From: Tissierellia bacterium
GTDB taxonomy: Bacteria; Bacillota; Clostridia; Tissierellales; Peptoniphilaceae
NCBI GenBank assembly: GCA_030537765.1
Contig: JAUNVH010000019.1
Coordinates: forward strand, 1 to 34,193
Length of the DNA: 34,193 nt
Direction of reading: 5' to 3'
Below the pieces are notes generated by a model. The model was not told where the DNA came from. It searched no databases and saw nothing but the letters and a program-made list of their open reading frames with translations. This document shows positions 5,353 to 21,493 of this stretch, one piece after another (the first letter of the stretch is position 1; each line of letters starts with the position of its first letter). The position numbers and the translations under genes were made by a program.

Positions 5353-6276
5353 ATGAACAATCAATATTTAGCTAGGATTGCATACTATTATTATATAAAA
5401 AATAAAACGCAATCAGAAATTGCTAGGCTCTTTAAAGTATCTAGACAGAAGATAAATAGAGATTTAAAGATGGCTCAAAAGCTTGGAATTGTAAAAGTTG
5501 ATATTGATTTTCCGATTAATTCAGATATAGAGCTGGAGGCAAATTTAGAAGAAAATTGTAATTTAAAAAAAGCCATTGTGATCAAATCTTCGGAAGAGAT
5601 TTTAAAAAAAGAACTAGCAAATGCTGCAAAGGAGTTTTTAGACAATTATCTTTCAGACGGAATGACTATTGGAGTTACTTGGGGCACTACTCTCTATGAG
5701 CTTGCCAAAGTTTTAAATGTGAAAAATTTCAAAAATATCAAAATCAAACAATTGATTGGCGGCGTAAATCCAAATTATCCAAATTTGAGTGGAGAAAATA
5801 TAGCTAGAATTTTTGCGAACAAGCTAGGGGGCAGTTTTACTTCATTCTATTTGCCGGCAATAGTATCAGACAGATTGACAAAAAAGATTCTGCTTGAAGA
5901 AAACGATACTTTAAAAGCGTATGAAGGAATGGACAAATGCGATCTTGTAATTGCTGGCGTTGGGAGTATTGAAAGAGAAAATACTGTTTCTAAACTTGGA
6001 TATTTGAGCGAAGAAAATAGAAAACTACTTTTGCAAAAGGGCATTGTGGGCGATTTAGGCTTAATCTATTACGATCGTAAAGGAATTCCTTATTTTGAAG
6101 AAGGCGCCCCAATCTCACTGGGCTATAATCTGTTTGAAAAGCCAAAGGATATGAAACTTATGGTAATTGCAGGCGGGGAAGAAAAAGCGGAGGCCATAAA
6201 GGCAATACTTAATGGTAAGATTGTGGATATATTGATAACTGATAAGAACTGCGCAAATAAAATTGTTTGCAAATAA
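5353..6276 (+). CDS. SorC-family sugar-binding transcriptional regulator
   Basis: This is a 307-residue regulator. The N-terminal helix-turn-helix (about 14-45) reads KTQSEIARLFKVSRQKINRDL, and the rest is the SorC effector-binding domain, with GMTIGVTWGTTLYEL, IKQLIGGVNPN and DLVIAGVGSIE. SorC/LsrR-type proteins bind phosphorylated sugars and control the operon they head. AGGAGGTG lies 7-9 bases before the ATG. It is the first gene of a seven-gene operon and precedes an FGGY kinase, a typical arrangement in which the kinase product is the inducer. The effector is probably a phosphorylated ketose or deoxy-sugar made by this operon, which is inference. Confidence 0.88.
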   Translation: MNNQYLARIAYYYYIKNKTQSEIARLFKVSRQKINRDLKMAQKLGIVKVDIDFPINSDIELEANLEENCNLKKAIVIKSSEEILKKELANAAKEFLDNYLSDGMTIGVTWGTTLYELAKVLNVKNFKNIKIKQLIGGVNPNYPNLSGENIARIFANKLGGSFTSFYLPAIVSDRLTKKILLEENDTLKAYEGMDKCDLVIAGVGSIERENTVSKLGYLSEENRKLLLQKGIVGDLGLIYYDRKGIPYFEEGAPISLGYNLFEKPKDMKLMVIAGGEEKAEAIKAILNGKIVDILITDKNCANKIVCK

Positions 6277-6289
6277 AAGAGGTGAAGCT

Positions 6290-7855
6290 TTGAAAAAATA
6301 TTTCTTGGGCATAGATTGCGGCACTACGATGTTAAAAGTTAATCTATATGATGAAAAAGGCATTGCAGTTATGAGAAAGCAGATTAAAAATCCTGTAATA
6401 ACTGAGGGCAGAAAGATTGAAATTGATATGGAAAAACTATGGGATAATGTTTCTTATCTAATAAGAGAAATTATAAAAGATTCTAAATTAAATCCATCTA
6501 ATATTGTGTCGATTGGAGTTTGCGCTCAAGGTGAAGGGCTTTGGGCACTCGATAAAGATTTAAAGCCTGTGAGAAATGCAATACTTTGGAATGACAGTAG
6601 AGCCCATACTATGGTCGATTCACTACATAGTGATCGCGATTTGATAAAGCAGATAAAAAATATTACGGGATCATTTATCTTCGGTGGAGGCACTAATTTA
6701 CTTTTAAAATATATAAAAGAAAATGAAAGAGAAGTATATGATAATATTGAGCATATATTTTTTTGCAAAGACTTTATCAGATTTAAATTGACAGGCGAAA
6801 TTTTTACAGACTATTCCGATATGTCTACTTCGATTATTGATTTAAACACGAAAGAAATTTCAAATGAGATGTTAAAGCTTTTAGATATTGAGCAGATGAA
6901 AGAAAAATTTGCGCCGATGAAAAAGTCTTATGAACTGGGCGGAAAAATTACTAAAGAAGCCGCAAGGCTTACGGGATTAAAAGAAAACACTCCAGTTGCA
7001 ATTGGGATGCTAGATGTGATTTCATCGCTATCGGGAGTAGGCGCAGTAAATGATGGCGATGCATTGGTGATTATCGGCACTACAATTTCTTGTGGTGTAG
7101 TTAGGCAAGATCTAAAAGACTTTTCGGCAAATCCTGGATATGAAATTCATTTTCTAGACGATAAATTTTTAGAAGTTATGTCTACAATGTCGGGAGCTGC
7201 TAATTTAGAATGGGCAATAGACACATTTTATTCCAATGAGAGAAGAGAATATAAAGATGAGATTTATAGCTTTTTAGAAACAGAAATAAAAGACATTGCG
7301 CCTGGAGCAGAAGGCATAATTTTTCATCCATATATTAGCGAATCGGGTGAGAGAATGCCGTTTTCAAATAAAAATGCCAGAGCTCAGTTTATGGGGCTTA
7401 GTATAAATAAAGGCAGAAAATATATGTTAAAGGCAGTTTATGAAGGCGTGGCTTTGGCTATTAGAGATTGCTTAGACTCCGTATTTAAAGGCGATTATGA
7501 ATACGACAAGGATAGCATTATTTATCTCACAGGCGGAGGTTCACAAAGTGAGATTTGGGCTCAAATTATTGCAGATGCCACAGGCAGATCTGTTAAGGTA
7601 TTAGAAGGTGGAGATTTTACATGCAGAGGTGCTGCGATGCTATCTACTATGACAAATGAAGCTGATTTTTCTAAACTTCTAAATATATATGAAAACTATA
7701 AAGTCAAATGGGAATTTATTCCAGACTATGAAAATTTTGAAATCTATCAAGATCTATACTATATATATAAAAAAACTAGAATGACTAATGACAATTTATG
7801 GCACGATCTAAAGCTCGTCAGAGATAAATCGAAGAGAAAGAGGAAGAATATATGA
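6290..7855 (+). CDS. FGGY-family carbohydrate kinase
   Basis: This 521-residue two-domain kinase phosphorylates a sugar or polyol with ATP in the cytoplasm. It shows the N-terminal phosphate motif GIDCGTT, then NAILWNDSRA, a central GMLDVISSLSGVGA segment, GERMPFSNKNARAQFMGLS, and the C-terminal adenosine motif TGGGSQSEIWAQIIADATG. Xylulokinase-like, LsrK-like and erythritol-kinase-like roles are all possible; I cannot select one. The frame extends to TTG 6263, but AGAGGTGAA just before TTG 6290 and the canonical KKYFLGIDCGTT beginning favour 6290. It follows the SorC regulator by 13 bases and overlaps the dehydrogenase gene by four (ATGA), so the three are translated together. Confidence 0.85.
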   Translation: MKKYFLGIDCGTTMLKVNLYDEKGIAVMRKQIKNPVITEGRKIEIDMEKLWDNVSYLIREIIKDSKLNPSNIVSIGVCAQGEGLWALDKDLKPVRNAILWNDSRAHTMVDSLHSDRDLIKQIKNITGSFIFGGGTNLLLKYIKENEREVYDNIEHIFFCKDFIRFKLTGEIFTDYSDMSTSIIDLNTKEISNEMLKLLDIEQMKEKFAPMKKSYELGGKITKEAARLTGLKENTPVAIGMLDVISSLSGVGAVNDGDALVIIGTTISCGVVRQDLKDFSANPGYEIHFLDDKFLEVMSTMSGAANLEWAIDTFYSNERREYKDEIYSFLETEIKDIAPGAEGIIFHPYISESGERMPFSNKNARAQFMGLSINKGRKYMLKAVYEGVALAIRDCLDSVFKGDYEYDKDSIIYLTGGGSQSEIWAQIIADATGRSVKVLEGGDFTCRGAAMLSTMTNEADFSKLLNIYENYKVKWEFIPDYENFEIYQDLYYIYKKTRMTNDNLWHDLKLVRDKSKRKRKNI

Positions 7856-8871
7856 AAATACTTATAACTGCTGAAATGGATCCCAAATATGTCGAAGAGA
7901 TTAAAAGCAATTGGGATGTCGATATTGAAGGCTGGTCTAAAGAATATCGATTAATGACGGAAGAGGAGATGCAAAAACTGGTGCCCGGCTACGATGTTTT
8001 AATAACGAGTTATGACGAAATTACAAAAAAGGTCATCGATGCTGGAAAAGATTTAAAGCTAATAATATGCACAAGGGCAAATCCTGTCAATATAGATATT
8101 GATTATGCAAAAGAAAAGAATATTAAAATTAGTTATGCTCCTGGCAGAAATTCAGATTGCACGGCAGAATTTACTGTGGCTATGATGATGAGTGTGGGTA
8201 GAAATATTCCAAAGGCACATCACGAACTAAAGCTGGGAAAACACACTTCGCCAAAAGAAACAGTAAAAGATATAAAGAGTGGACTAAGAGAAGATGTGAC
8301 TTGGGATCTGAGTGCCACATCTCCATATGTGATTTTTAAAGGCAGACAATTATATGGAAATACTGTGGGAATTATAGGATATGGAAATATTGGCAGAAGA
8401 GTTGGCGAGATATTAAAGGCCTTTGGCATGAATATCTTAGTCTATAGTCCCAGCATAAAAGAAGAATTAGAAGGCGTTAAGAAAGTGGGTTTGGAAGAGC
8501 TTTTGAAAGAATCTGATTATATTACGATTCATTCAGCGGCGATTGAAAAAAACAGGCATCTCATTGGGAAAAAAGAATTTGATATGATGAAAGAAACTGC
8601 ATATTTTATAAACACATCTCGCGGCATGCTTGTAGACGAAGAGGCTTTAATTGAAGCTTTGAGAGAAGAAAAAATTGCAGGGGCTGCAGTCGATGTCTAC
8701 GCATCAGAGCCTATTGCAATCGATCATCCATTTATAACTGAACTTGAAAATATTGTCATTACGCCTCATCTTGGGGGAGCAACCTTAGAGGCGATCACAA
8801 ATCACAGCAAGATGGCGCTTTCTGAATTGAAAGCATTTGAAAATAATGAACCATTAGAATATGAATATTAG
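7852..8871 (+). CDS. D-isomer-specific 2-hydroxyacid dehydrogenase
   Basis: This is a 339-residue NAD-dependent dehydrogenase of the phosphoglycerate dehydrogenase/D-lactate dehydrogenase superfamily. The nucleotide-binding motif is GIIGYGNIG. The catalytic triad appears as Arg in NTSRGMLVDEEAL, Glu in DVYASEP and His in TPHLGGAT. A segment of about 30 residues (SGLREDVTWDLSATSPYVIF) lies just before the Rossmann domain, a feature of the subgroup found beside sugar kinases. There is no C-terminal ACT domain, so it is unlikely to be a regulated serine-pathway SerA. It overlaps the kinase gene by four bases and precedes the gamma-lyase-like gene by nine. It could reduce a 2-keto acid released by that lyase, or oxidise a sugar-derived hydroxyacid. 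Confidence 0.85.
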   Translation: MKILITAEMDPKYVEEIKSNWDVDIEGWSKEYRLMTEEEMQKLVPGYDVLITSYDEITKKVIDAGKDLKLIICTRANPVNIDIDYAKEKNIKISYAPGRNSDCTAEFTVAMMMSVGRNIPKAHHELKLGKHTSPKETVKDIKSGLREDVTWDLSATSPYVIFKGRQLYGNTVGIIGYGNIGRRVGEILKAFGMNILVYSPSIKEELEGVKKVGLEELLKESDYITIHSAAIEKNRHLIGKKEFDMMKETAYFINTSRGMLVDEEALIEALREEKIAGAAVDVYASEPIAIDHPFITELENIVITPHLGGATLEAITNHSKMALSELKAFENNEPLEYEY

Positions 8872-8880
8872 GAGGAAAAA

Positions 8881-10089
8881 ATGACTGAAGAAAAACAGAT
8901 TGACAAAAGCAAATGGGGTTTTTATACAAAATCGGTACATGTGGGAAGCGAACCATGTCCTGCAACTGGAGCGTTAGTGGCGCCGATTTATCAAACCTCG
9001 ACTTACACTTATGAAAATACTACTGAAGCGGGCCAAATCTTCTCTGGGGAAAAATTTGGTTATCTTTACGGCAGAGACCATAGCCCAACTGAATATCAAC
9101 TCGAAGAAAAAATTGCTGCGCTAGAAGGCGGCGAGGCTTGCAAAACTTTTGCTTCGGGCATGGCCGCAATCTCTGCGGTGGCACTTGCAATTTTAAATCA
9201 AGGCGACCATGTAATCTGCTCAGATGTGGTCTATGGTGGAACTTATGGACTTTTTGAAAAAATATTTAATAAATATGGAGTAGAGCATACATTTGTAGAC
9301 ACTTCTGATTTAGAAAAGCTTGAAGCCGCCATTAAAAATAATACGAAGATGATTCACATTGAAACGCCTGCAAATCCGACATTGAGACTTACAGACATTA
9401 AAAAAGTTTCTGAAATCTGTAAATCTAAAGGCATAAAGCTCGTGGTAGACAATACTTTTATGACGCCATATTTTCAAAGGCCTTTAGATCTGGGAGCAGA
9501 TATAGTAGTTCATTCATGCACAAAGTATATGGGAGGACATGGAGATTTAATTGCCGGAGCAGTTATTGCAGACGAGGACTTTATAAAAAATGGACTCCAT
9601 GAGCCAGTGACAAAAATTGGCGGACTCATATCGCCATTTACTTGCTTTTTAGTAAAACGCGGTCTTCAAACTCTGGGCCTAAGAATGAATCAGCATAATA
9701 AGAATGCTTTAGAGATTGCAAAATTCTTAGAATCGCATCCGGCAGTTGAGAAAACTATTTATCCAGGCCTTAAGAGCCATCCGCAACATGAACTTGCAAA
9801 ACAGCAGATGACAGGCTTTGGTGGGCTTATATCTTGCGAATTAAAGGGCGGTTTAAAAAACGGTCAGGCATTTTGTGACAATTTGGAATTGATCTCATTG
9901 GCAGTTAGCCTTGGCGATGTGGGTACATTGGTGCAGCATCCAGCCAGCATGACTCATAAGAGTCTTCCTAGAGAAGAGAGAATTTCATCAGGAATTACAG
10001 ATAGCTTGATAAGAATTTCATGCGGGGTAGAAGATACAAAAGATTTAATAGATGATATAAAACAGGCATTAGATAAATTAGAAATATAA
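8881..10089 (+). CDS. Cys/Met-metabolism PLP enzyme, methionine gamma-lyase-like
   Basis: This is a 402-residue enzyme of the trans-sulfuration family. It has VHVGSEP and IYQTSTYTY at the N-terminus, YGRDHSPTEYQLE (the Tyr-x-Arg pair contacting the PLP phosphate), ASGMAAISA, the PLP lysine Lys215 in HSCTKYMGGHGD, and SLGDVGTLVQHPASMTH at the C-terminus. Overall similarity is to methionine gamma-lyase, which gives methanethiol, 2-oxobutyrate and ammonia. However, the cysteine normally found in the YGCT motif of that enzyme is Gly120 here (YGGT). Cystathionine gamma-lyase or O-acetylhomoserine sulfhydrylase is therefore possible. AGGAGG lies five to six bases before the ATG. It sits mid-operon beside the aldolase and the NhaC-type carrier. 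Confidence 0.83.
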   Translation: MTEEKQIDKSKWGFYTKSVHVGSEPCPATGALVAPIYQTSTYTYENTTEAGQIFSGEKFGYLYGRDHSPTEYQLEEKIAALEGGEACKTFASGMAAISAVALAILNQGDHVICSDVVYGGTYGLFEKIFNKYGVEHTFVDTSDLEKLEAAIKNNTKMIHIETPANPTLRLTDIKKVSEICKSKGIKLVVDNTFMTPYFQRPLDLGADIVVHSCTKYMGGHGDLIAGAVIADEDFIKNGLHEPVTKIGGLISPFTCFLVKRGLQTLGLRMNQHNKNALEIAKFLESHPAVEKTIYPGLKSHPQHELAKQQMTGFGGLISCELKGGLKNGQAFCDNLELISLAVSLGDVGTLVQHPASMTHKSLPREERISSGITDSLIRISCGVEDTKDLIDDIKQALDKLEI

Positions 10090-10106
10090 ATAGGGAGGAA
10101 AATGAA

Positions 10107-10766
10107 ATGATGTATTTAAAAGAAAGACAAGAAATAATCGATTATGGTATAAAGATGTTAGAAATGGGCTTGACAAAAGGCACTGGAGGAAATTTATCGG
10201 TCTTCGTGCGAGATAAAGGCCATATGCTAATTAGTCCAAGCGGAATTGAATATCACAAGATAAAACCTGAAGACATTGTAGTCATGGATTTAGATGGAAA
10301 TATCATATCGGGCGACAAAAAGCCTTCCTCAGAACATGAAATGCATTCCATAGTCTATAAGACAAGAGATGATATAGACGCAGTAATCCATACGCATACG
10401 ATCCATTGTGCAGCTGTTTCATGCATGAATGTAGATTTGCCTGCAGTGCACTATATGATAGCTGTTGCAGGTGGAAAAAATGTCAGATGTGCAAAATATG
10501 CGACATTTGGTACGCCAGAGCTTGCAAAAAACGCCATTGAAGCGATGAAAGACAGAAAAGCAGTACTACTTGCAAACCACGGCCTTTTAGCAGGCGCAAA
10601 AGATTTGGCAAATGCTTTAAATATTACTGATGAAATAGAATTTGTGGCCCAATTATATCTCATGACAAAGGCTGCCGGCGAGCCAGTTATATTACCTGAC
10701 GAAGAGATGGATTTAATGCTCGGCAGATTTGCATCATATGGTCAAATTAAATCCGACAAAAAATAA
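10107..10766 (+). CDS. Class II aldolase, FucA-like (sugar-1-phosphate, DHAP-forming)
   Basis: This 219-residue protein follows E. coli L-fuculose-1-phosphate aldolase closely: GTGGNLSV and SPSGIEY (phosphate binding), SSEHEMH with the catalytic Glu, zinc ligands in IHTHTIH and LLANHGLL, and PAVHYMIAVAGG. Such enzymes split ketose-1-phosphates into DHAP and an aldehyde. Close relatives act on 5-methylthioribulose-1-phosphate and 5-deoxyribulose-1-phosphate in SAM by-product salvage. With mtnK two genes downstream, that role is more likely than fucose use, since no fucose isomerase is present. GGAGG at 10094-10098 serves ATG 10107 or the adjacent ATG 10110. The stop codon lies beside a small hairpin (10749-10778). 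Confidence 0.87.
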   Translation: MMYLKERQEIIDYGIKMLEMGLTKGTGGNLSVFVRDKGHMLISPSGIEYHKIKPEDIVVMDLDGNIISGDKKPSSEHEMHSIVYKTRDDIDAVIHTHTIHCAAVSCMNVDLPAVHYMIAVAGGKNVRCAKYATFGTPELAKNAIEAMKDRKAVLLANHGLLAGAKDLANALNITDEIEFVAQLYLMTKAAGEPVILPDEEMDLMLGRFASYGQIKSDKK

Positions 10767-10778
10767 TGTCGGAGATTT
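10749..10778 (+). other. Intra-operon hairpin at the aldolase stop codon
   Basis: AAATCCGACA (10749-10758) pairs with TGTCGGAGATTT (10767-10778) with one bulged A. No T-run follows, so it is not a usual terminator. It could stabilise or process the operon mRNA between the enzyme genes and the transporter gene. Confidence 0.4.
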
Positions 10779-10805
10779 GAAAATAAATTACTAGGAGGGA
10801 AAAGC

Positions 10806-12098
10806 ATGAAAAAAGGTTCGATTAAAGGTTTAATACCACTAATAGTATTCCTGCTCATATTTGCAGGCACAGGTATTATAACCGGCAAGTTTGAAAATAT
10901 GCCTCTATTAGTCGCATTCATCATAACTTCAGCAATAGCATTGGCTATGAATAAAGAGGGCGAAAAATTAAGCTTGTCTGAAAAAGTAGATATGTTTGCA
11001 AAAGGTGGCGGAGATCCGACACTGATACTGATGGTCTTAATATTTATATTAGCAGGCGCTTTCTATTCTGTTGCAGATGCAATGGGAGCCGTTAGCTCGA
11101 CAGTAAATTTGGGACTGAGCATTTTACCTGCCAATATGTTATTGCCAGGACTGTTTATAGTTGGTTGTGTTTTGAGCTTTGCAATGGGAACATCGATGGG
11201 TACGGTCAGCGCTTTAACTCCAATTGCAGTTGGAATAGCTTCTAATACTAATATCTCTATGCCTCTAATTTGTGGCGTAGTAATTGGAGGAGCAATGTTT
11301 GGTGACAATCTATCTTTCATATCTGATACTACAATTGCGGCAACTAGAACGCAAGAAGTTGAAATGAGAGATAAATTTAAAGTAAATATTTTGATAGTTT
11401 TACCGGCAGTAATCATAAATTTGATCGTTTTATTCTTTATGAATGTAAAAGTAACGGGACTTGAAACATTTGAATATAATTTAGTAAATATAATTCCATA
11501 TATCGTAATTATAGCCTTTGCACTCATGGGCCTAAATGTATTTGCAACACTTGGACTAGGAATTTTGGTCGGTTGCATAATAGGTTTAATTCACGGAGAC
11601 TTTACAGTGCTTGAGATGTTTGAAGTGCTTCAAAGAGGCATGGGCTGGATGGAAGATATTGCAATAATTGCCATAGTCGTGGGTGGTGTTGTGGCACTTA
11701 TGAATCACTATGGTGGAATAGATTATCTAATTTACAAATTGACTTCGAAAGTAAAGACTAAAAAAGGCGCCGAATTTAGTATGGCAGCATTAGTTTCTTT
11801 GATTGACGTGGCTACAACTAATAATACTATTTCTATAATTACTGCAGGTCCGATAGCAAGAGATATATCGGATCAGTTCGAAATTGATAGAAGGAGAACG
11901 GCAGGACTTTTAGATATTTTCTCATCAGGTTTCCAAGGTTTGATACCATATGGCGGACAGCTACTCGTCGCAGGTGGCCTTGCACAAATTTCACCAGGCG
12001 CAATTACACCATATTCATGGTATCCAATGCTCATAATCGTAATGGGAATAATAGCTATTATAACGGGCATACCTAAACTTAAAGAGGTAAAAAAATAG
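10806..12098 (+). CDS. NhaC-superfamily Na+/H+ antiporter-like transporter
   Basis: This 430-residue protein has about 10-12 membrane segments. It shows features of the NhaC/ion-transporter group: SFAMGTSMGTVSALTPIAVGIA, GAMFGDNLSFISDTTIAATRTQ, and a matching C-terminal half with DVATTNNTISIITAGPIA. The family includes sodium-proton antiporters, the malate/lactate exchanger MleN and the S-box-regulated methionine transporter candidate MetT. In this operon an import role for methionine, methylthioribose or a similar compound is more likely than plain pH homeostasis, which is inference. AGGAGGG is six to seven bases before the ATG. MtnK starts directly after its stop codon. Confidence 0.82.
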   Translation: MKKGSIKGLIPLIVFLLIFAGTGIITGKFENMPLLVAFIITSAIALAMNKEGEKLSLSEKVDMFAKGGGDPTLILMVLIFILAGAFYSVADAMGAVSSTVNLGLSILPANMLLPGLFIVGCVLSFAMGTSMGTVSALTPIAVGIASNTNISMPLICGVVIGGAMFGDNLSFISDTTIAATRTQEVEMRDKFKVNILIVLPAVIINLIVLFFMNVKVTGLETFEYNLVNIIPYIVIIAFALMGLNVFATLGLGILVGCIIGLIHGDFTVLEMFEVLQRGMGWMEDIAIIAIVVGGVVALMNHYGGIDYLIYKLTSKVKTKKGAEFSMAALVSLIDVATTNNTISIITAGPIARDISDQFEIDRRRTAGLLDIFSSGFQGLIPYGGQLLVAGGLAQISPGAITPYSWYPMLIIVMGIIAIITGIPKLKEVKK

Positions 12099-13307
12099 AT
12101 GGCAGAAAATAAAAAACGTCATTATAAGCTAGATTTAAATACGGTTATAGATTATGTAATAGAAAAAAATCTATTCGACGACAGAAAAAATCTAGAATCA
12201 GAAGAAATTGGTGACGGAAATATAAATTATATATATAGAGTCAAAGATAGATTGACGAATAAATCTGTCATACTGAAACAGGCCGATGTACTTTTGCGCT
12301 CTTCAGGCAGGCCACTTTCTATTGATCGCTCTAGAATTGAGGCCGAAATATTAAAATATTATGAAAACACTGCTGGCAAATTTACTCCAAAAATCTATGA
12401 TTATGACGAGATAATGTGCGTAATTGCCATGGAAGATATATCTGAGTATAAAAATATGAGAAAAGAACTCATGGAGCGTAAAATTTTTCCTAAATTTGCA
12501 GAAGATATAGTCGAATTTATGGTAAAGACATTATTACCAACGACCGATTTAATCATGGATGCCGAATTAAAAAAGCTTGAAGTAAAAAAATATATAAATC
12601 CAGAACTCTGTAAGATTTCAGAAGATTTAGTCTTTACAGAACCTTTTATAGATTATAAAGGTAGAAATATAATTACAGAGGGCAATTTGGAATTTGTGGA
12701 AGAATATCTATATAATGATTTTTTGCTTCATAAAGAAGTGGCCCTATTAAAAGAAGAGTTTATGAATAATGCTCAAGCCTTAATTCATGGAGATCTTCAC
12801 ACCGGCTCAATCTTTATAAATGAAAAGGGCATAAAGATAATCGATCCAGAATTTGCATTTTACGGCCCAATTGGCTATGATAGCGGAAATGTAATTGGAA
12901 ATCTGTTTTTTGATGCGGCCTATAATAGATTTTCTGAAGGCTTCAGTGAAGAATTTGAAAATTGGATATTAGATACTGCTGCAAACATATTAGAAAAGTT
13001 CGGAAGCGAATTGCAAAAAGAGCTTGTAGCCGAAAATATAGTCGATCCAATTAGAAAAAATGATTTATATTTAAAAGAATATATAGAATCTATTCTGTCA
13101 TATACGATGGGCGCAAGCGGTTTGGAAATTTTAAGAAGAACTGTGGGCGATTCTAAAGTTATAGAACTTCATGCATTAAAAAATGGTGAAGCGCGCATTG
13201 CAGCTGAGAGAATGTTGATAAAAATCGGAAAAGAATTTATAAAAAATAGAAGCACAATTAGAACTAAAGCAGATATTTTGAAAATTTATAAAAATTCAAT
13301 TAATTAA
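12099..13307 (+). CDS. mtnK: S-methyl-5-thioribose kinase
   Basis: This 402-residue protein aligns well by eye with Bacillus MtnK. It has EEIGDGNINYIYRV (nucleotide loop), VILKQAD, RSRIEAE, INPELCKISEDLVFTEPF, the catalytic-loop motif ALIHGDLHTGS, the metal motif IDPEFAFYGPIGYD, and a C-terminal RRTVG. It phosphorylates methylthioribose, the sugar left after the adenine of methylthioadenosine is removed, to the 1-phosphate; relatives also use 5-deoxyribose. The start is adjacent to the transporter stop, with GAGGT about 10 bases upstream. It is the last gene before a terminator. The usual partner, isomerase MtnA, is not in the window. Confidence 0.92.
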   Translation: MAENKKRHYKLDLNTVIDYVIEKNLFDDRKNLESEEIGDGNINYIYRVKDRLTNKSVILKQADVLLRSSGRPLSIDRSRIEAEILKYYENTAGKFTPKIYDYDEIMCVIAMEDISEYKNMRKELMERKIFPKFAEDIVEFMVKTLLPTTDLIMDAELKKLEVKKYINPELCKISEDLVFTEPFIDYKGRNIITEGNLEFVEEYLYNDFLLHKEVALLKEEFMNNAQALIHGDLHTGSIFINEKGIKIIDPEFAFYGPIGYDSGNVIGNLFFDAAYNRFSEGFSEEFENWILDTAANILEKFGSELQKELVAENIVDPIRKNDLYLKEYIESILSYTMGASGLEILRRTVGDSKVIELHALKNGEARIAAERMLIKIGKEFIKNRSTIRTKADILKIYKNSIN

Positions 13308-13320
13308 GCTTTAAAATACT

Positions 13321-13362
13321 AGATTAAAAGGGTCTGAAATTAATATTCAGCCCTTTTAATTA
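13321..13362 (+). terminator. Terminator at the end of the mtnK operon
   Basis: AATTAAAAGGG-type arms (13323-13332 with 13351-13360) plus an inner CTGAA/TTCAG pairing form a long stem with one bulge and a short loop. The right arm supplies the T-rich end. It separates the mtnK operon from the 5-oxoproline operon. Confidence 0.7.
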
Positions 13363-13495: not shown

Positions 13496-13933
13496 ATGAA
13501 ATACTATATTGCCTATGGCAGTAATTTAAATAGATCATTAATGAAAAAATTCTGCCCTGGGAGTGAATTAGTAGCAAAAGCCAAAATAAAAAATGCAGTC
13601 TTGAGATTTAGAGGACATGGCTATTTGAATTTAGAAATTGGAGATTTTGATACCTTTGTCTATACTGCTATTTGGAAAATTGACAGAGCTTGCGAAAAAG
13701 CATTAGACATTTATGAAGACTATCCCAAACTTTATGACAAAGTAGAAATAGATATAAAAATAAAAGATGATTTAGTAAAAGCGTTCTATTATAAGATGAA
13801 TAAGCCTTATGATAGCGAGCGCGCGATGCCAAAAAAGAAATATGTGAAAACAGTATTAAAAGGATATAAAGATATGAACTTTGAAACTTCGGCATTAGAT
13901 GATGCGATAGAGGAGATTGGATTTGAAAAATAA
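13496..13933 (+). CDS. Gamma-glutamylcyclotransferase-like (AIG2/GGCT fold) protein
   Basis: This 145-residue protein begins YYIAYGSNLN, the hallmark substrate-binding motif of the gamma-glutamylcyclotransferase fold. The catalytic acid is probably the Glu in LDIYEDYPKLYDK. The C-terminal AFYYKM and PKKKYVKTVLKGY segments also fit. These enzymes cyclise a gamma-glutamyl group to 5-oxoproline, freeing the attached amino acid or amine. AAAGGAT lies before the ATG. The M14 peptidase gene overlaps its end by 11 bases, and a pyroglutamyl peptidase closes the operon. Together they support a role in gamma-glutamyl or pyroglutamyl compound use. The precise substrate is not visible. Confidence 0.85.
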   Translation: MKYYIAYGSNLNRSLMKKFCPGSELVAKAKIKNAVLRFRGHGYLNLEIGDFDTFVYTAIWKIDRACEKALDIYEDYPKLYDKVEIDIKIKDDLVKAFYYKMNKPYDSERAMPKKKYVKTVLKGYKDMNFETSALDDAIEEIGFEK

Positions 13934-16900
13934 TTATCATATAGTATTAGCAGATGAAAATAATTTAAAACTGAATAGATTGGCGATTGAATTGGCTCAA
14001 ATTGCAATGCTCTTTTCAGATTCTATGGCGCTTCCAAACGTTTCAAAAGAAAAAAGCCCAGAGGCAATAAATTTATATTTAAAAGACGGTTTAAAAAATC
14101 ATATAAAAAGAGATGGCAAAAATTATGAAATCATTGCCGACAATCAAGATATAATTTATGAAATTTTAGAAAATATTTTTGAAATTAAAAAAGATAGTAT
14201 CGATTATGAAATTGGCAATAGTTCTAATTTAAAATTGGAAGATATATTTGGCGAGGGCGCATTAAAAACTAGAGATAAAAATTATGTAATAAATGCAAGC
14301 CAATACAGCATTGAATTTAGAAAAGATTTTTCGTATGAGGAAATTCAAGCGGCTGCGGCCGTCGTTTCGCGGATTGCACTTGACTGTCAAAAAATACATT
14401 ATCCAATAACTGGTGATGATGCAAATATAATTATAAAAAGTAATGGAAAAAATAGGATCGAAAATTATAAAGATAAAATCAAAATTAATTGTGATATATC
14501 TAATATGAATGATTTTTATAAATTGTTAGAAATTCACGCCCAAGATGAGCTTATAAATTATTTTAATGAATCTTTGGCTTTAAAAAATTTTGACGGGCAA
14601 TATGCATATGCCAATTCATTTTATAAAGACGGAGAATATTATTTAGAAAAAATATCGGATATTAAAAAGTCGAAATTGATGCAAAATAGTAGAATCAAAA
14701 GCTACAAAGACGAAAAAATCATATTCGAACAATTTAAAGAATTTGAATGGGAAGTCGATATATTCAAAAGAGAAGTTTTAAATGTATTAGAAAATGTAAA
14801 TATTGATAAAAAAATTTATATAGAGGCTATCTTGAGTGAAGATGAAGAAATTAGAAAAAATACAGAGATAGAATTAAAAAATATATTGCATGAAAGAAAT
14901 ATTGAATCGGAAATTTCTATTTTGAATTCCTATAAACAAGGATTTAGCTGGATTGCGGAAAAATTGATTCCCAAAATTAAAAAACTAAATTTCGATCGCA
15001 TAGAAATTTTATTTAGTCAATTTTCTAAAGATCCAACCGAAGCTTGGACAGAGGAAGAGGGCGCTGTGCCAACTTATGTGAATTTAAATTTAGATAACGA
15101 GGGCAAATGGTTCGATCTGCCGATTAGACTACTTCAAGAATTATATCCGATTGACGATATCTTAGCCAAAGAATTAGATTTTGATAGAGATAAAATTGAA
15201 TTTAAGCTGCTTGAAGAAGAGAGCGAATTTAAATATGTATTCAAATTATGGCATGAAAATAAACCCATAGAAACATTTGAATTTTTGCCAAAATTTAGTG
15301 AGAGATATTATTTAGACGAATTTCCAACTATGGGACTTGTGCATCCCAATACTGCATATTTTAAAATCGTACAAGATGATAAATTGATTGCAGAAAAGTT
15401 TTTTAAAACTGATTTAGAAAATATATGGAATTATTATCAAAAAGAGATTTTGCCAAAGGCTATGGAAAATGTTGATAGCTTTCATGAGCCTATATTTTCA
15501 AAATTGAAATTAGAGATAAATCTTTCGGAATGCGACTACAAACTGCCAATTAGAGAAGATCGAATTTCAGCACTCGATAGTTTTCATGAAGATCTTTATT
15601 TTGTCGGCTTAGACTATTTTAAACTCGCATCTCAAAAGCGCTTTGGAAAAATAATGGATGCGCCCGGTCTAATTTTGCCAATAATTCACAAGACTGAAGG
15701 CAGACCAAATATAAGATGGAGCATTTCAGTACCGATAGACAGAAGGCCTTTCGTATTAAATGGAGATAAAAAATATTATATAGAAAGCAAAATTGCAAAT
15801 TCAAAATTTGAATCGATTGAAATAATTGAGGGCAAAAAATTGGCGACTATTAGCTTAAACGGTGAAAATATTGCAGCCGGATTAAAACAGTTAATAGAAA
15901 AAAATCTAGCCAATATACCAAAATCTATTTACGATTTTGACAAGCTCATTTTAAATGCCGATAAAGTCTACTGTATTGATATTAAGCGTCCTAAAAAGAC
16001 TGAGAATATTTTACAATTTGAGCATAGAAAAGATAAAATCTATAATTACGAAGATACAATTTCAGCAATCGACAATTTAAATAATACAGGGGGAATAGAA
16101 ACTGAATATCTAAGTTCTAGTTATGAAGGCAGAAAAATTCATAGCATTTACTTTGATGAACCCTCCAAAGGCTTTAAAACTTCTTATAAAAAGACTTATA
16201 CTAAGCCCACTATCTATATAAATGCAAGGCATCATGCAAATGAAGTTTCGAGCACAAATTCAACTTTTGATTTGATTAAGAAACTGGGCACTATCGAAAT
16301 TTATAAAAAGTATTTAGATAGAATGAATATTATATTTTTGCCAAACGAAAATCCAGATGGCACAGATATTCATTATGAGCTTCAAAAAGAACATCCCGAG
16401 TGGATCTTTCATATATCTAGATTTAATGCACTTGGCAAAGAATTTGGGCACGATTATTTTGTAAAAGACACAATCCATACAGAAGCTAAGGCGTTGGAAA
16501 AGATTTATAAAAAATGGCTGCCCGATATATTTATAGATGATCATGGAGTTCCGCATCATGAATGGTCTCAACAGTTTTCTGGCTATACAGCGCCAGCATA
16601 TAAAGGTTTTTGGCTGCCAAGAGCATTATTATATGGATACTTTTGGTATAGAGAAGGATTTGAGAAGAACATTTCATATGCAAAAGAATTGGAACATGCA
16701 ATCGCAAAGAGCTTTAGAGACGATGAAGAATCGACTAAATTAAACGAAGATTTAAAAGATAGATTCTTCAAATATGCAAATAATTGGCTGCCAAAGATGT
16801 TTCCTGCCAATTATTATATGGATTTAATATTTTACTGGATAGCCTTCGATGAAAAATCTACCAAGAATTATTTATCGGTCAGATTTCCAGAAATTACAGT

Positions 16901-17090
16901 CGTCGGCTATACTAGTGAAGTTACAGATGAAACTGCAACTTCTAAACATCTCAAAATGTGCAGCGATGCACATGTGAAAAATAATTTGGCAATACTTGAA
17001 ACAGTCTATAATCGACCAATTAAATTTCAAAAGAACTTTATGGAATTTAAAAATGGTCTTTTAATAGAAAATAAAAGAATAAGAAATTAA
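13923..17090 (+). CDS. Very large M14-family zinc carboxypeptidase-like protein
   Basis: This protein has about 1055 residues. The M14 metallopeptidase domain occupies roughly 728-1040: the zinc motif is RHHANE (His771 and Glu774), NPDGTDIHYE provides the substrate-binding loop, and DDHG holds the likely third zinc ligand, His874. PEITVVGYTSEVTDE near 985-1000 may carry the catalytic Glu. The first 720 or so residues match no domain I recognise; they are acidic and Lys/Glu-rich. No signal peptide is seen, so it is probably cytoplasmic and acts on imported peptides. AGGAG at 13911-13915 fits TTG 13923; TTG 13917 is also in frame but too close. It is co-translated with the cyclotransferase gene and lies 11 bases before the DUF969 gene. 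Confidence 0.83.
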   Translation: MKNNYHIVLADENNLKLNRLAIELAQIAMLFSDSMALPNVSKEKSPEAINLYLKDGLKNHIKRDGKNYEIIADNQDIIYEILENIFEIKKDSIDYEIGNSSNLKLEDIFGEGALKTRDKNYVINASQYSIEFRKDFSYEEIQAAAAVVSRIALDCQKIHYPITGDDANIIIKSNGKNRIENYKDKIKINCDISNMNDFYKLLEIHAQDELINYFNESLALKNFDGQYAYANSFYKDGEYYLEKISDIKKSKLMQNSRIKSYKDEKIIFEQFKEFEWEVDIFKREVLNVLENVNIDKKIYIEAILSEDEEIRKNTEIELKNILHERNIESEISILNSYKQGFSWIAEKLIPKIKKLNFDRIEILFSQFSKDPTEAWTEEEGAVPTYVNLNLDNEGKWFDLPIRLLQELYPIDDILAKELDFDRDKIEFKLLEEESEFKYVFKLWHENKPIETFEFLPKFSERYYLDEFPTMGLVHPNTAYFKIVQDDKLIAEKFFKTDLENIWNYYQKEILPKAMENVDSFHEPIFSKLKLEINLSECDYKLPIREDRISALDSFHEDLYFVGLDYFKLASQKRFGKIMDAPGLILPIIHKTEGRPNIRWSISVPIDRRPFVLNGDKKYYIESKIANSKFESIEIIEGKKLATISLNGENIAAGLKQLIEKNLANIPKSIYDFDKLILNADKVYCIDIKRPKKTENILQFEHRKDKIYNYEDTISAIDNLNNTGGIETEYLSSSYEGRKIHSIYFDEPSKGFKTSYKKTYTKPTIYINARHHANEVSSTNSTFDLIKKLGTIEIYKKYLDRMNIIFLPNENPDGTDIHYELQKEHPEWIFHISRFNALGKEFGHDYFVKDTIHTEAKALEKIYKKWLPDIFIDDHGVPHHEWSQQFSGYTAPAYKGFWLPRALLYGYFWYREGFEKNISYAKELEHAIAKSFRDDEESTKLNEDLKDRFFKYANNWLPKMFPANYYMDLIFYWIAFDEKSTKNYLSVRFPEITVVGYTSEVTDETATSKHLKMCSDAHVKNNLAILETVYNRPIKFQKNFMEFKNGLLIENKRIRN

Positions 17091-17101
17091 AGGAGGAATT
17101 T

Positions 17102-17791
17102 ATGGAATTATTTAAATTGATAGGCCTATTAGTGCTAATTGTCGGCTTTGCATTAAAACTAGATGCAATTTTAATCATATTTGCAGCCATGATTGCAACG
17201 GCAATAGCGGGCGGCTTAGGAATTACAGAATTTTTTACAATTTTAGGAAAGTCTTTCGTATCAAATAGAGCAATGATGATTTTTGTAATTATAATGTTTG
17301 TAACTGGTACTATGGAGAGAAATGGACTTAGAGAATCGGCTGCAAAACTTATTGGACGTTCTAAAAAAGCAACGCCTGGAAAAGTTATTATGTCTTATGG
17401 AATATTTAGGGCAATTTTTGGCGCATTTAACGCAAGTTTCGGAGGCGTTGCAGGCTTTGTAAGACCAATCATTTTACCGATGGCAGAAGGAGCAGTGCTT
17501 TCAAAACACGGCGAAGTAGACGAAAATTATTCAGAAGAAATAAAGGGCATGAGCGCCGCGATGGAAAATATAACTTGGTTTTTCTGGCAAGTGCTCTTTG
17601 TCGGAGGTTCGGGTGCGCTCTTAGTTCAAGGCACTTTGAAAGAACTGGGATATAGCGTTGAGCTAATCGATCTTGCAAAGGTTGAAATTCCGGTGGCAAT
17701 TTTTGCGCTAGTCGTTGCCAGCGTCTATTTCTTGCTAAAAGATAAGCGCTTAGAAAAGACTTATGGCAAAAATATAAAGAGGGGTGAATAG
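17102..17791 (+). CDS. DUF969-family membrane protein (permease half)
   Basis: This is a 229-residue membrane protein with about six helices. It has a conserved FGAFNASFGGVAGFVRPIILPMAEGA segment and a NITWFFWQVLFVGGSGALLVQG segment typical of DUF969. AAAGGAGG precedes the ATG. In many Firmicutes DUF969 is directly followed by DUF979 and then pcp, exactly as here, which suggests that the two proteins form one transporter. The substrate may be 5-oxoproline or pyroglutamyl peptides; this is inferred from the neighbours only. Confidence 0.85.
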   Translation: MELFKLIGLLVLIVGFALKLDAILIIFAAMIATAIAGGLGITEFFTILGKSFVSNRAMMIFVIIMFVTGTMERNGLRESAAKLIGRSKKATPGKVIMSYGIFRAIFGAFNASFGGVAGFVRPIILPMAEGAVLSKHGEVDENYSEEIKGMSAAMENITWFFWQVLFVGGSGALLVQGTLKELGYSVELIDLAKVEIPVAIFALVVASVYFLLKDKRLEKTYGKNIKRGE

Positions 17792-17792
17792 T

Positions 17793-18740
17793 ATGTCTTT
17801 CTTTTTCAATAGTGATATAGCAATAGGAACTAGAGTATTGGAAATTATATTTATAATGATAGGCCTAATACTCATATATGTTGGATATAGCAATTTTAAA
17901 GATAAGACTAATCCACAAAGAGTTGGAACTTCAATATTTTGGATTATTCTGGGTGTAGTCATCGCCTTTGGCAGATGGATACCTGAAATGTTTGTGGGCA
18001 TTATGGTAATTATAATGGCAATTCCAGCCATACTAAAAAAAGTAAAGCCGGGAAAAAACGACGCCCCGTCTAAAGAATATACGGTAGAAATGTCTGAAAA
18101 GATTGGTTTTAAAATATTTATCCCAGCCCTAACAATAGGAGTCTTTGCGGTGGGCTTTGCACTATTTGTAAAGCAATTGGGCGCATTGGTGGGAGTTGGC
18201 GTAGGTGTAATTGTCGCAGCAATTATGCTCAGAATCTTAAATAAAGATAATACCCTACCCGTATTTTTAAAAGACAATAAGAGATTATTAGACTTAGTTG
18301 GCCCACTTTGTATGTTGCCAATGTTTTTGGCAAGTCTAGGCGCTGTGTTCACAGCTGCCGGAGTTGGAGATGTGGTGGCTGATATAGTTGGCACAATTAT
18401 TCCACAAGGCAATGTCAATATAGGCATTATTGTATTTGCAATCGGCATGGCATTATTTACTATTATTATGGGTAATGCATTTGCTGCGATTACGGTTATG
18501 ACAGTGGGAATTGGCGCACCGTTCGTATTACAATATGGAGCAAACCCTGCTTTAATAGGCATGGTGGCATTAACCTCTGGATATTGTGGAACACTTCTGA
18601 CTCCAATGGCTGCCAATTTCAATATTGTGCCTGTCGCAATTTTAGAAATGAAAGATAGATATGGAGTAATCAAAAATCAGATAATACCTGCATTTTTACT
18701 TTTGACATTCCAAATCGTATATATGATTATATTTAAATAG
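17793..18740 (+). CDS. DUF979-family membrane protein (permease half)
   Basis: This protein has about 315 residues and eight or nine helices. Features are LGVVIAFGRWIPEMFVG, AIGMALFTIIMGNAFAAITVMTVGIG and VALTSGYCGTLLTPMAANFN, matching DUF979. The frame extends to GTG 17784, but GAGGGGTG (17779-17786) fits ATG 17793. The GTG lies inside that site. The start is one base after the DUF969 stop, so the two are made in equal amounts. The GTLLTPMAANFN loop resembles the re-entrant loops of ion-transporter superfamily carriers, which fits a carrier role. Confidence 0.85.
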   Translation: MSFFFNSDIAIGTRVLEIIFIMIGLILIYVGYSNFKDKTNPQRVGTSIFWIILGVVIAFGRWIPEMFVGIMVIIMAIPAILKKVKPGKNDAPSKEYTVEMSEKIGFKIFIPALTIGVFAVGFALFVKQLGALVGVGVGVIVAAIMLRILNKDNTLPVFLKDNKRLLDLVGPLCMLPMFLASLGAVFTAAGVGDVVADIVGTIIPQGNVNIGIIVFAIGMALFTIIMGNAFAAITVMTVGIGAPFVLQYGANPALIGMVALTSGYCGTLLTPMAANFNIVPVAILEMKDRYGVIKNQIIPAFLLLTFQIVYMIIFK

Positions 18741-18757
18741 ATTACAAAGGAGGAAAA

Positions 18758-19402
18758 ATGAAAATACTATTGACCGCATTTGATCCATTTGGCGGAGAAA
18801 GTGTAAATCCAGCACTAGAAGCTGTGAAAATGGTAAGAGACGAAATAGAAGGCGCTGAAATTATAAAACTTGAGATTCCAACTGTGTTTAAAAAAGGACC
18901 TCAAACTATTTTTAAAAAAATAGACGAAATAAATCCAGATGCAGTCCTTTCAATTGGACAAGCTGGAGGCAGATCTGCCATAACTGTAGAATTTGTGGGC
19001 ATAAATTGGGCAGATGGACGAATAGCCGACAATGAGGGAAATAAGCCAACAGGTGAAAAGATATTTGATGATGGAGAAAATGCCTATTTTTCAAGTTTAC
19101 CAGTAAAAGCAATGGTTGAAAATATTAGGAAAAACGAAATTCCAGCATTCTTATCTTATACTGCCGGCACATTTGTCTGCAATGATGTCTTATATAGCGT
19201 ACTATATTATATCCATAAAAATAATCTAGATATGAAAAGCGGCTTTATCCACGTGCCATTTGCACCAGATCAAGTCGTTTCAAAACCCAATAACACAAGC
19301 TCTATGAGTGTGCAAATGATAGCCAAAGCTATAGAATGCGCGCTAGAAAGTATTGTCAAAACAGACAAAGATTTAGTAAAGAGCATGGGAGAGACGGAAT
19401 AA
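18758..19402 (+). CDS. pcp: Pyrrolidone-carboxylate (pyroglutamyl) peptidase
   Basis: This 214-residue C15 cysteine peptidase removes N-terminal pyroglutamate from peptides. All three catalytic residues are visible: Glu78 in TVEFVGINW, Cys141 in YTAGTFVCNDVLY and His165 in GFIHVPF. The N-terminal ILLTAFDPFGGESVNPA is standard. Length and spacing equal the family norm (Glu81, Cys144 and His168 in characterised enzymes). AAAGGAGG precedes the ATG. It ends the operon, followed by a strong terminator, and together with the cyclotransferase makes 5-oxoproline the common product of this gene set. Confidence 0.95.
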   Translation: MKILLTAFDPFGGESVNPALEAVKMVRDEIEGAEIIKLEIPTVFKKGPQTIFKKIDEINPDAVLSIGQAGGRSAITVEFVGINWADGRIADNEGNKPTGEKIFDDGENAYFSSLPVKAMVENIRKNEIPAFLSYTAGTFVCNDVLYSVLYYIHKNNLDMKSGFIHVPFAPDQVVSKPNNTSSMSVQMIAKAIECALESIVKTDKDLVKSMGETE

Positions 19403-19405
19403 ATG

Positions 19406-19437
19406 AAATCGGAAGGCAATTTGCTTTCCGATTTTTT
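19406..19437 (+). terminator. Terminator after pcp
   Basis: AAATCGGAAGGCA and TGCTTTCCGATTT form a 13-bp stem with one G-T pair and a three-base loop. It is followed by a T-run ending at 19437. Confidence 0.9.
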
Positions 19438-20770: not shown

Positions 20771-21493
20771 TCAAACGGTTAAAAGCTTAGCATAACCATA
20801 AATTTTGTCGTCTATATTGCTAGTTCTCAATGCATTCCAAAAAGAAGCTTGAATAGCTGATATTACAGGTTTATTTAAATCTGATTCTAAACTTTCTAAA
20901 ATACCAATAGTTCTAAGGCCAGTGCAAAGAATTACTAAACATTCTGAATCATCGGCATCAGAATTTTTTGCTTCGCGATAAACATCTTTTAATTTTAAAT
21001 TATCGATTTCAGAATCGTAAAGTAAATTGAGAGATCTCATTTTTACAACTTCGATTTCGTTTTCATTAAAAAATATTTTAGCCTTTTCAGAAACTGATTC
21101 AATATATGGACTTAAAACAGAAATCTTTTTTATATTTAATTTTTTCAAAGCCTTTATAATTGAGCCAGAAGTAGTTATACATTTTACATTTGCAATCTTT
21201 TCCAAATCCTTAGACAAATCTAAATCGTATTTAGTGCCAGCTATAAAGCTCCCACTAGTGCAACCAAATACTAATACATCAATGGGTGCTTGTACAAGCA
21301 ATTTAGCAGCGTTTTTAGACTCTTTTGACATCTTTATTAAATGATCCTCATTTGTCTTTAAAAGTGAAATTCTACTAGTTAATGTAATTATGCCTTTAGG
21401 GGCTAATTTTTGAAATTCAGCTTCCATAATCCAGCCTGGAGCGGGATAAATGAGTCCAATTTTTAAACGCTCTCCATAATCGAAATCTATCAT
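20771..21493 (-). CDS. Asp/Glu racemase-superfamily protein, maleate isomerase/arylmalonate decarboxylase type
   Basis: This 240-residue protein has the two-cysteine layout of the superfamily. The first is in LVFGCTSGSF (about residue 78) and the second in VILCTGLRTIG (about 189). An N-terminal KIGLIYPAPG and a TTSGSIIKALKKLNIKKISVLSPY segment are typical of the maleate cis-trans isomerase and arylmalonate decarboxylase branch. These are cofactor-free enzymes of the cytoplasm. The substrate cannot be assigned. AAAGGTGAT precedes the ATG. It is a single gene with its own promoter and no informative neighbours. Confidence 0.8.
   Translation of the reverse strand: MIDFDYGERLKIGLIYPAPGWIMEAEFQKLAPKGIITLTSRISLLKTNEDHLIKMSKESKNAAKLLVQAPIDVLVFGCTSGSFIAGTKYDLDLSKDLEKIANVKCITTSGSIIKALKKLNIKKISVLSPYIESVSEKAKIFFNENEIEVVKMRSLNLLYDSEIDNLKLKDVYREAKNSDADDSECLVILCTGLRTIGILESLESDLNKPVISAIQASFWNALRTSNIDDKIYGYAKLLTV

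Follow-up and report, generated by a model that had tools for sequence, protein, structure and literature searches.

A clade of DUF969/DUF979 membrane protein pairs tied to a giant M14 peptidase, with a possible role in the uptake of N-blocked peptides

Introduction

What does a two-protein membrane system of the DUF969/DUF979 family carry in a bacterium in whose genome neither known type of 5-oxoprolinase was found? The question is raised by a contig of 34,193 nucleotides from a Tissierellia bacterium (JAUNVH010000019.1, assembly GCA_030537765.1), here termed the window. It carries a run of five genes that encode a gamma-glutamylcyclotransferase (GGCT), a giant peptidase of family M14, DUF969, DUF979, and pyroglutamyl peptidase I (Pcp). 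The initial annotation centred this run on 5-oxoproline (5-OP) and proposed that the two membrane proteins form a carrier for pyroglutamyl peptides, gamma-glutamyl compounds, or 5-OP.

A role as a 5-OP carrier is already in print for the family, having been proposed by Niehaus et al. (2017), as cited in PMC11467057 and PMC12795558. PMC11467057 assigns DUF979 to the ion transporter superfamily and gives a confident model of the DUF969/DUF979 heterodimer of C. difficile (interface predicted template modelling score about 0.9). PMC12795558 describes a preliminary experiment in which a Campylobacter jejuni cj0552-4 mutant (DUF969, DUF979, and DUF2891) loses growth on 5-OP. The idea of a two-part carrier draws strength from this work and from the company that the pair keeps with Pcp. 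DUF969/DUF979 pairs are now starting to be called 5-OP transporters wholesale. In the abstracts and passages of the DUF969/DUF979 literature that were consulted, neither an M14 partner nor a division into two clades was found. Here, we describe two strongly supported clades within the family. The second (clade II), previously undescribed, is coupled to a giant peptidase in which the first 700 residues fall outside every described family, and the clade as a whole probably has a substrate other than 5-OP.

Results

Two clades and two gene modules

Both membrane proteins of the window matched their families over the full length and scored above the cut-offs (DUF969, PF06149, 247 bits, E = 1.9e-73; DUF979, PF06166, 372 bits, E = 3.8e-111). 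We compared the neighbourhoods of 40 DUF979 loci in relatives and of 80 named M14 loci, and these resolved into two modules. In module I, DUF969-DUF979-Pcp frequently precedes GGCT and a gene for a CRP/FNR-type regulator, and the module is sometimes linked to the 5-oxoprolinase genes PxpABC. Module II has the order M14-DUF969-DUF979-(M29-like)-Pcp and is frequently accompanied by a TetR gene in divergent orientation. In a DUF979 tree of 99 rows, all 53 rows of clade II were linked to M14 and 45 of the 46 rows of the other clade (clade I) were not. The split had 100/100 support in a thinned and more careful tree, where it was recovered in 200 of 200 bootstrap trees, and the trees of DUF969 (support 99) and Pcp (81) divided in the same way. 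The window pair falls in clade II, outside the clade that holds the 5-oxoprolinase-linked pairs (100/100 support). Since the Pcp homologs of module II form a group of their own (support 81), they share the descent of the carrier and are not chance acquisitions.

The majority of clade II rows were identified by way of M14. Seven rows, taken from samples of relatives (121 genomes, comprising the window genome, its family, and its order) and of the phylum (398 genomes), are free of that bias, and all seven were M14-linked (G000, which is the window genome, G025, G054, the second copy in G077, G098, G119, and G362). PxpA was not found in any of the genomes of these seven rows. One genome, G077, holds a DUF969/DUF979 pair of each clade, which argues that the split is not just a record of species history. 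Clade II occurs in Bacillota, Spirochaetota, Chloroflexota, and Cryosericota, and is common in gut Lachnospiraceae and Peptoniphilus.

Among 56 clade II loci, M14 was near in 56, Pcp in 46, and the M29-like partner (PF02073, marginal score) in 39; a search of the window genome for the M29-like protein returned none. Loci with M14 and without Pcp include the second copy in G077, G098, G362, L129, and L151. The constant partner of clade II is therefore M14, and GGCT occurs with few of these loci, so that 5-OP loses the central place that the initial annotation gave it. M14 alone does not define the clade, because at one locus (L171, in G164) an M14 gene shares a run with DUF969-DUF979-Pcp-PxpA-PxpB-PxpC, and the DUF969/DUF979 pair there carries clade I residues. 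PxpABC was near DUF969-DUF979-Pcp in G344 as well.

Three further observations concern the family. A CRP/FNR-type regulator of about 231 amino acids (cluster c3) stands beside clade I DUF969/DUF979-Pcp in L032, L033, L041, and 15 other loci, and is a candidate sensor of 5-OP status. In a Tissierellia metagenome-assembled genome, DUF969 and DUF979 occupy a single open reading frame of 545 amino acids (L091, 7113-8750). We considered this frame as a Rosetta-stone fusion and give it little weight, as the ribosome site and ATG of DUF979 are kept inside it and an assembly error is possible. Finally, a frame of 472 amino acids in the window genome (L002, G000:C32:2115-2585) gave a weak DUF979 match (22 bits, under the cut-off) and is probably another protein of the ion transporter superfamily.

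Residue switches in DUF969

Eight positions of DUF969 are fixed or nearly fixed for different residues in the two clades (clade I to clade II: A106F, S110N, L111V, L113F, H116V, Q118G, N159W, and N164V), and they cluster around the invariant motifs GG(x)FxRP and EN(x)F(x)Q. The corresponding motifs of the window protein are FNASFGGVAGFVRP at 109-122 and ENITWFFWQV at 155-164. It has V116, G118, W159, and V164 rather than the H116, Q118, N159, and N164 of clade I, and departs from its clade at position 111, which is Ala. The PxpABC-linked rows L171 and L174 have clade I letters in DUF969. Switches between the clades are few in DUF979 and hardly any were seen in Pcp. The DUF969 switches point to a different substrate for clade II, a prediction that positions 116, 118, 159, and 164 make directly testable.

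Distribution of Pcp, GGCT, and 5-oxoprolinases

Of the 121 genomes in the sample of relatives, 42 encode DUF979, 66 Pcp, 35 the GGCT family GGACT, 20 PxpA, 21 PxpC, 2 Hydantoinase_B, and 7 the giant M14 protein, all above cut-off. In tests that ignore shared ancestry, DUF979 and Pcp occurred together in 41 of the 42 DUF979 genomes (22.9 expected, p = 1.7e-13), and DUF979 and GGACT in 24 (12.1 expected, p = 1.5e-6); Pcp was present without DUF979 in 25 genomes. The suggestion that the pair often accompanies pcp is thus borne out, and DUF969/DUF979 pairs are not found mostly without a 5-OP enzyme, a pattern that would have spoken against the initial annotation.

DUF979 and PxpA co-occurred in 2 of 42 genomes (6.9 expected, p = 0.010; 2 of 27 at the genus level, p = 0.06). 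This scarcity was gone in the phylum sample, where PxpA was found in 5 of 15 DUF979 genomes, in four of them on the same contig, and we rejected a general exclusion of PxpA by DUF979. In the window genome (97.6% complete), searches for PxpA (PF03746), PxpC (PF02626), and Hydantoinase_B (PF02538) found none of the three. Any 5-OP made by Pcp and GGCT therefore has no known user here, as PxpA, PxpC, and an OPLAH-type 5-oxoprolinase are all missing. PxpA was present in 4 of 47 further clade II genomes, compared with 120 of the 398 phylum genomes (p = 0.001). Completeness was not reported for the 47, which include two Peptoniphilus genomes that also belong to the sample of relatives. Given that the window genome and 43 of these 47 genomes have no PxpA, 5-OP as an end product is unlikely to be food.

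The giant M14 protein

The Peptidase_M14 family (PF00246, 46.7 bits) covers only residues 731-821 of the 1057 residues of this protein. In an AlphaFold2 (AF2) model built from a 45-row alignment (mean predicted local distance difference test score, pLDDT, 91), residues 700-1035 match M14 carboxypeptidases (Z = 26.7, root mean square deviation 2.7 over 253 residues). The protein shares with M14 zinc carboxypeptidases (e.g., 7eqx and 4b6z) this fold and the HxxE...H zinc motif, and unlike them is extended at its N-terminus by 700 residues that fit no known family. The zinc motif (H773-x-x-E776 and H876) and the catalytic Glu (E1001), assigned by motif, are conserved in the 45 aligned proteins. 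Where carboxypeptidase A has an Arg after the first zinc His, the window protein has an Asn (N775); R835 and R902, conserved in the alignment, are candidates for the arginines that bind the C-terminal carboxylate of the substrate.

Residues 1-700 gave no convincing match in Pfam (at E 10), NCBIfam, or PDB sequences. Modelled alone, they reached a pLDDT of 83.5, and E279, S307, K340, R404, Q407, and E408 were kept in at least 44 of the 45 aligned proteins. The best structural match in the VIA comparison, the cellulose synthase subunit BcsB (Z = 10.1, 206 scattered residues), was too weak for the fold to be named after it. Residues 265-606 weakly resembled cyclic amide hydrolases of the Toblerone fold (Foldseek E = 1.3e-3, probability 0.33, TM score 0.16), with a weak VIA match to this group as well (Z = 6.0 over 90 residues). 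Pfam gave no hit for them at E 10, and this resemblance likewise does not suffice to name the fold. It is conceivable, and we consider it highly improbable, that the conserved residues listed above belong to another catalytic centre in the N-terminal part, one for a cyclic amide, for instance the ring of a pyroglutamyl group. The giant protein itself would then stand in for the absent 5-oxoprolinase or unblock N-termini; the weak resemblance to cyclic amide hydrolases is the sole hint of this.

M14 relatives at five loci without DUF969/DUF979 (L123, L145, L146, L155, and L161) adjoin an oligopeptide ABC transporter (SBP_bac_5, OppC_N, and oligo_HPY). This suggests that imported peptides are the likely substrate of M14 and that DUF969/DUF979 may stand in for a peptide importer. 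Distant M14 relatives (L149 and L150) lie near peptide-transporter genes and an amidohydrolase that resembles D-aminoacylases.

GGCT and Pcp

The GGCT-like protein has a weak score that passes the cut-off for GGACT (PF06094, 34.1 bits, E = 4.4e-8; cut-off 22.8) and is also above the cut-off for PF13772, and a PDB sequence search gave no match. It contains a YGSN motif, and its candidate catalytic Glu74 is invariant among the window protein and four relatives. Family match and candidate residue together predict a gamma-glutamylcyclotransferase activity. Pcp matches Peptidase_C15 over its full length (PF01470, 235 bits, E = 1.1e-69), TIGR00504 above cut-off, and PDB entry 3lac by sequence (E = 1.8e-57); its candidate catalytic set (E78, C141, and H165) is present and invariant.

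Operon layout and neighbouring genes

All five open reading frames run head to tail in close order, as the initial annotation described, and have families confirmed by Pfam (Table 1). Two intrinsic terminators, detected by folding of the flanks after a promoter/terminator scan had missed both, enclose the run, which on this basis appears to be transcribed as a single unit. A single base separates the DUF969 stop from the DUF979 ATG, again as first annotated, and GGCT and M14 overlap at the TTG start of the latter, for which the candidates are the TTG at 13917 and a TTG at 13923 whose distance from GAGGAG is more favourable. Peptoniphilus duerdenii ATCC BAA-1640 (L093) and Peptoniphilus sp. BV3C26 (L094) carry the five genes in this same order. 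This recurrence and the excess of DUF979-Pcp co-occurrence argue that the gene order is not due to chance.

Table 1. Genes and terminators of the operon in the window
Feature	Position	Strand	Basis
Terminator (intrinsic) of upstream unit, after methylthioribose kinase gene	13323..13360	+	hairpin dG -16.0, T-rich 3' side
GGCT/AIG2-like gamma-glutamylcyclotransferase (predicted), 145 aa	13496..13933	+	PF06094
Giant M14 protein, 1057 aa	13917..17090	+	PF00246
DUF969 membrane subunit, clade II	17102..17791	+	PF06149
DUF979 membrane subunit, clade II	17793..18740	+	PF06166, tree
Pcp, pyroglutamyl peptidase I, family C15	18758..19402	+	PF01470, TIGR00504
Terminator (intrinsic) closing operon, directly 3' of pcp	19405..19435	+	14-pair hairpin, dG -17.9, then T6

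Upstream of the operon, a cluster at 5353-13307 comprises genes for a sugar-binding regulator, an FGGY kinase, a 2-hydroxyacid dehydrogenase, methionine gamma-lyase, a class II aldolase, an NhaC-type transporter, and methylthioribose kinase, and looks like a unit for methylthioribose/methionine salvage or breakdown. Downstream, a protein of the arylmalonate decarboxylase / Asp-Glu racemase family is encoded at 20771-21493 on the reverse strand.

Discussion

What the clade II carrier may transport

The link of clade II to M14 holds also at loci that have no Pcp, and elsewhere M14 stands beside peptide importers; what the carrier imports is therefore most likely the M14 substrate. Pyroglutamyl and gamma-glutamyl peptides, both N-blocked, are, we infer, the class that all three enzymes of the operon can handle. 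We therefore propose, at a probability of about 0.4, that small N-blocked peptides enter through the clade II carrier and are dismantled in the cytoplasm by M14, GGCT, and Pcp, and, as tentatively, that the operon is a module for the use of peptides inside the cell. DUF969 and DUF979, each of which published modelling suggests to be one repeat of the ion-transporter-superfamily fold, would jointly form one secondary carrier that takes up small acidic N-blocked peptides, namely dipeptides and tripeptides with a pyroglutamyl or gamma-glutamyl group. After uptake, the giant M14 metallopeptidase would trim these peptides, Pcp would take off the pyroglutamyl residue, and the GGCT-like enzyme would cyclise gamma-glutamyl groups. 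The outcome would be free amino acids and 5-OP, and the latter, unused by any known 5-oxoprolinase here, would presumably exit the cell. The direction of transport, the substrate, and the order of cleavage are all predictions of this model. Of the three substrates named in the initial annotation, N-blocked peptides fit best here, and 5-OP fits the other clade.

Several observations weigh against this proposal. At ten of the 56 clade II loci no Pcp gene lies within 6.5 kb, in a few cases because the contig ends, and GGCT is confined to few lineages (Peptoniphilus-type clade II loci and one other). The family member with a phenotype, that of C. jejuni, moves 5-OP according to PMC12795558. In addition, the DUF969 switches are presumed to lie at the substrate site on the basis of the nearby conserved motifs.

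The C. jejuni phenotype, together with the existence of pxp-linked members (L171 and L174), favours the published proposal that the family takes up free 5-OP as a source of nitrogen or carbon. Such uptake would be futile in this bacterium, where both known 5-oxoprolinase types are missing, unless an unknown enzyme uses 5-OP. PxpA is also rare among DUF979 genomes of the order and among clade II genomes, and clade II does not have the DUF969 letters of the pxp-linked rows. We therefore set this back as the main role here and regard it as very unlikely. The opposite direction, in which DUF969/DUF979 is a waste valve that exports 5-OP as the dead-end product of Pcp and GGCT while peptides enter otherwise, would suit a genome that makes 5-OP with two enzymes and has no known 5-oxoprolinase, and would suit the near absence of DUF979 without Pcp in the order in the face of 25 genomes with Pcp and no DUF979. 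An exporter of a Pcp product would not, however, be expected to have M14 as its fixed partner even in Pcp-free loci, and in many relatives Pcp occurs in the absence of both DUF979 and PxpA. We judge export to be unlikely; together with the exchange discussed next, it is the chief competitor of peptide import. Searching the literature for bacterial export of 5-OP yielded nothing.

Import and export could also be joined in an exchange of pyroglutamyl or gamma-glutamyl peptide for 5-OP, like other decarboxylation- or cleavage-linked antiporters. This would unite the M14 and Pcp linkage with the missing 5-oxoprolinase and account for a carrier and cleaving enzymes in one operon, but the sequence features that we compared do not separate exchange from symport, and Pcp-free loci exist; exchange is, in our estimate, rather improbable. 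About equally doubtful is a carrier that feeds M14 a substrate unrelated to pyroglutamate, such as another N-acyl or unusual peptide, with Pcp and GGCT as general peptide-breakdown neighbours. The constancy of the M14 link and the inconstancy of the Pcp link agree with this, as do M14 relatives that stand beside Opp systems without Pcp or GGCT and the amidohydrolase near L149 and L150. Inheritance of the module Pcp with its carrier does not. If import of N-blocked peptides is correct, the operon shows how amino-acid-fermenting anaerobes take up such peptides. The data also raise the question of the fate of 5-OP in bacteria that make it without a 5-oxoprolinase.

Comparison with known systems

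The window pair shares with the published 5-OP transporter family the same two Pfam families, in the same order and one base apart, beside Pcp. It differs in belonging to a separate clade with switched DUF969 residues, in its link to M14, and in standing without PxpABC. Like DUF969/DUF979, PxpABC loci concern 5-OP, and the two adjoin in G164 (L171). PxpABC loci also have 5-OP carriers of their own (PxpT/YcsG), as in C. glutamicum according to PMC13274462. PxpT is an APC/NRAMP-type protein, unlike DUF969/DUF979, and PxpABC is missing from the window genome.

A further parallel is abgABT, which serves the import and cleavage of p-aminobenzoyl-glutamate. Neither DUF969 nor DUF979 of the window matched the AbgT family at E 0.01, and AbgT is a single protein that works with M20 peptidases, compared to a two-part carrier and M14 in the window. 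What the two systems have in common is that a secondary carrier, from one and the same superfamily, is paired with peptidases of the cytoplasm that act on an N-blocked compound; in the case of the window this is a prediction.

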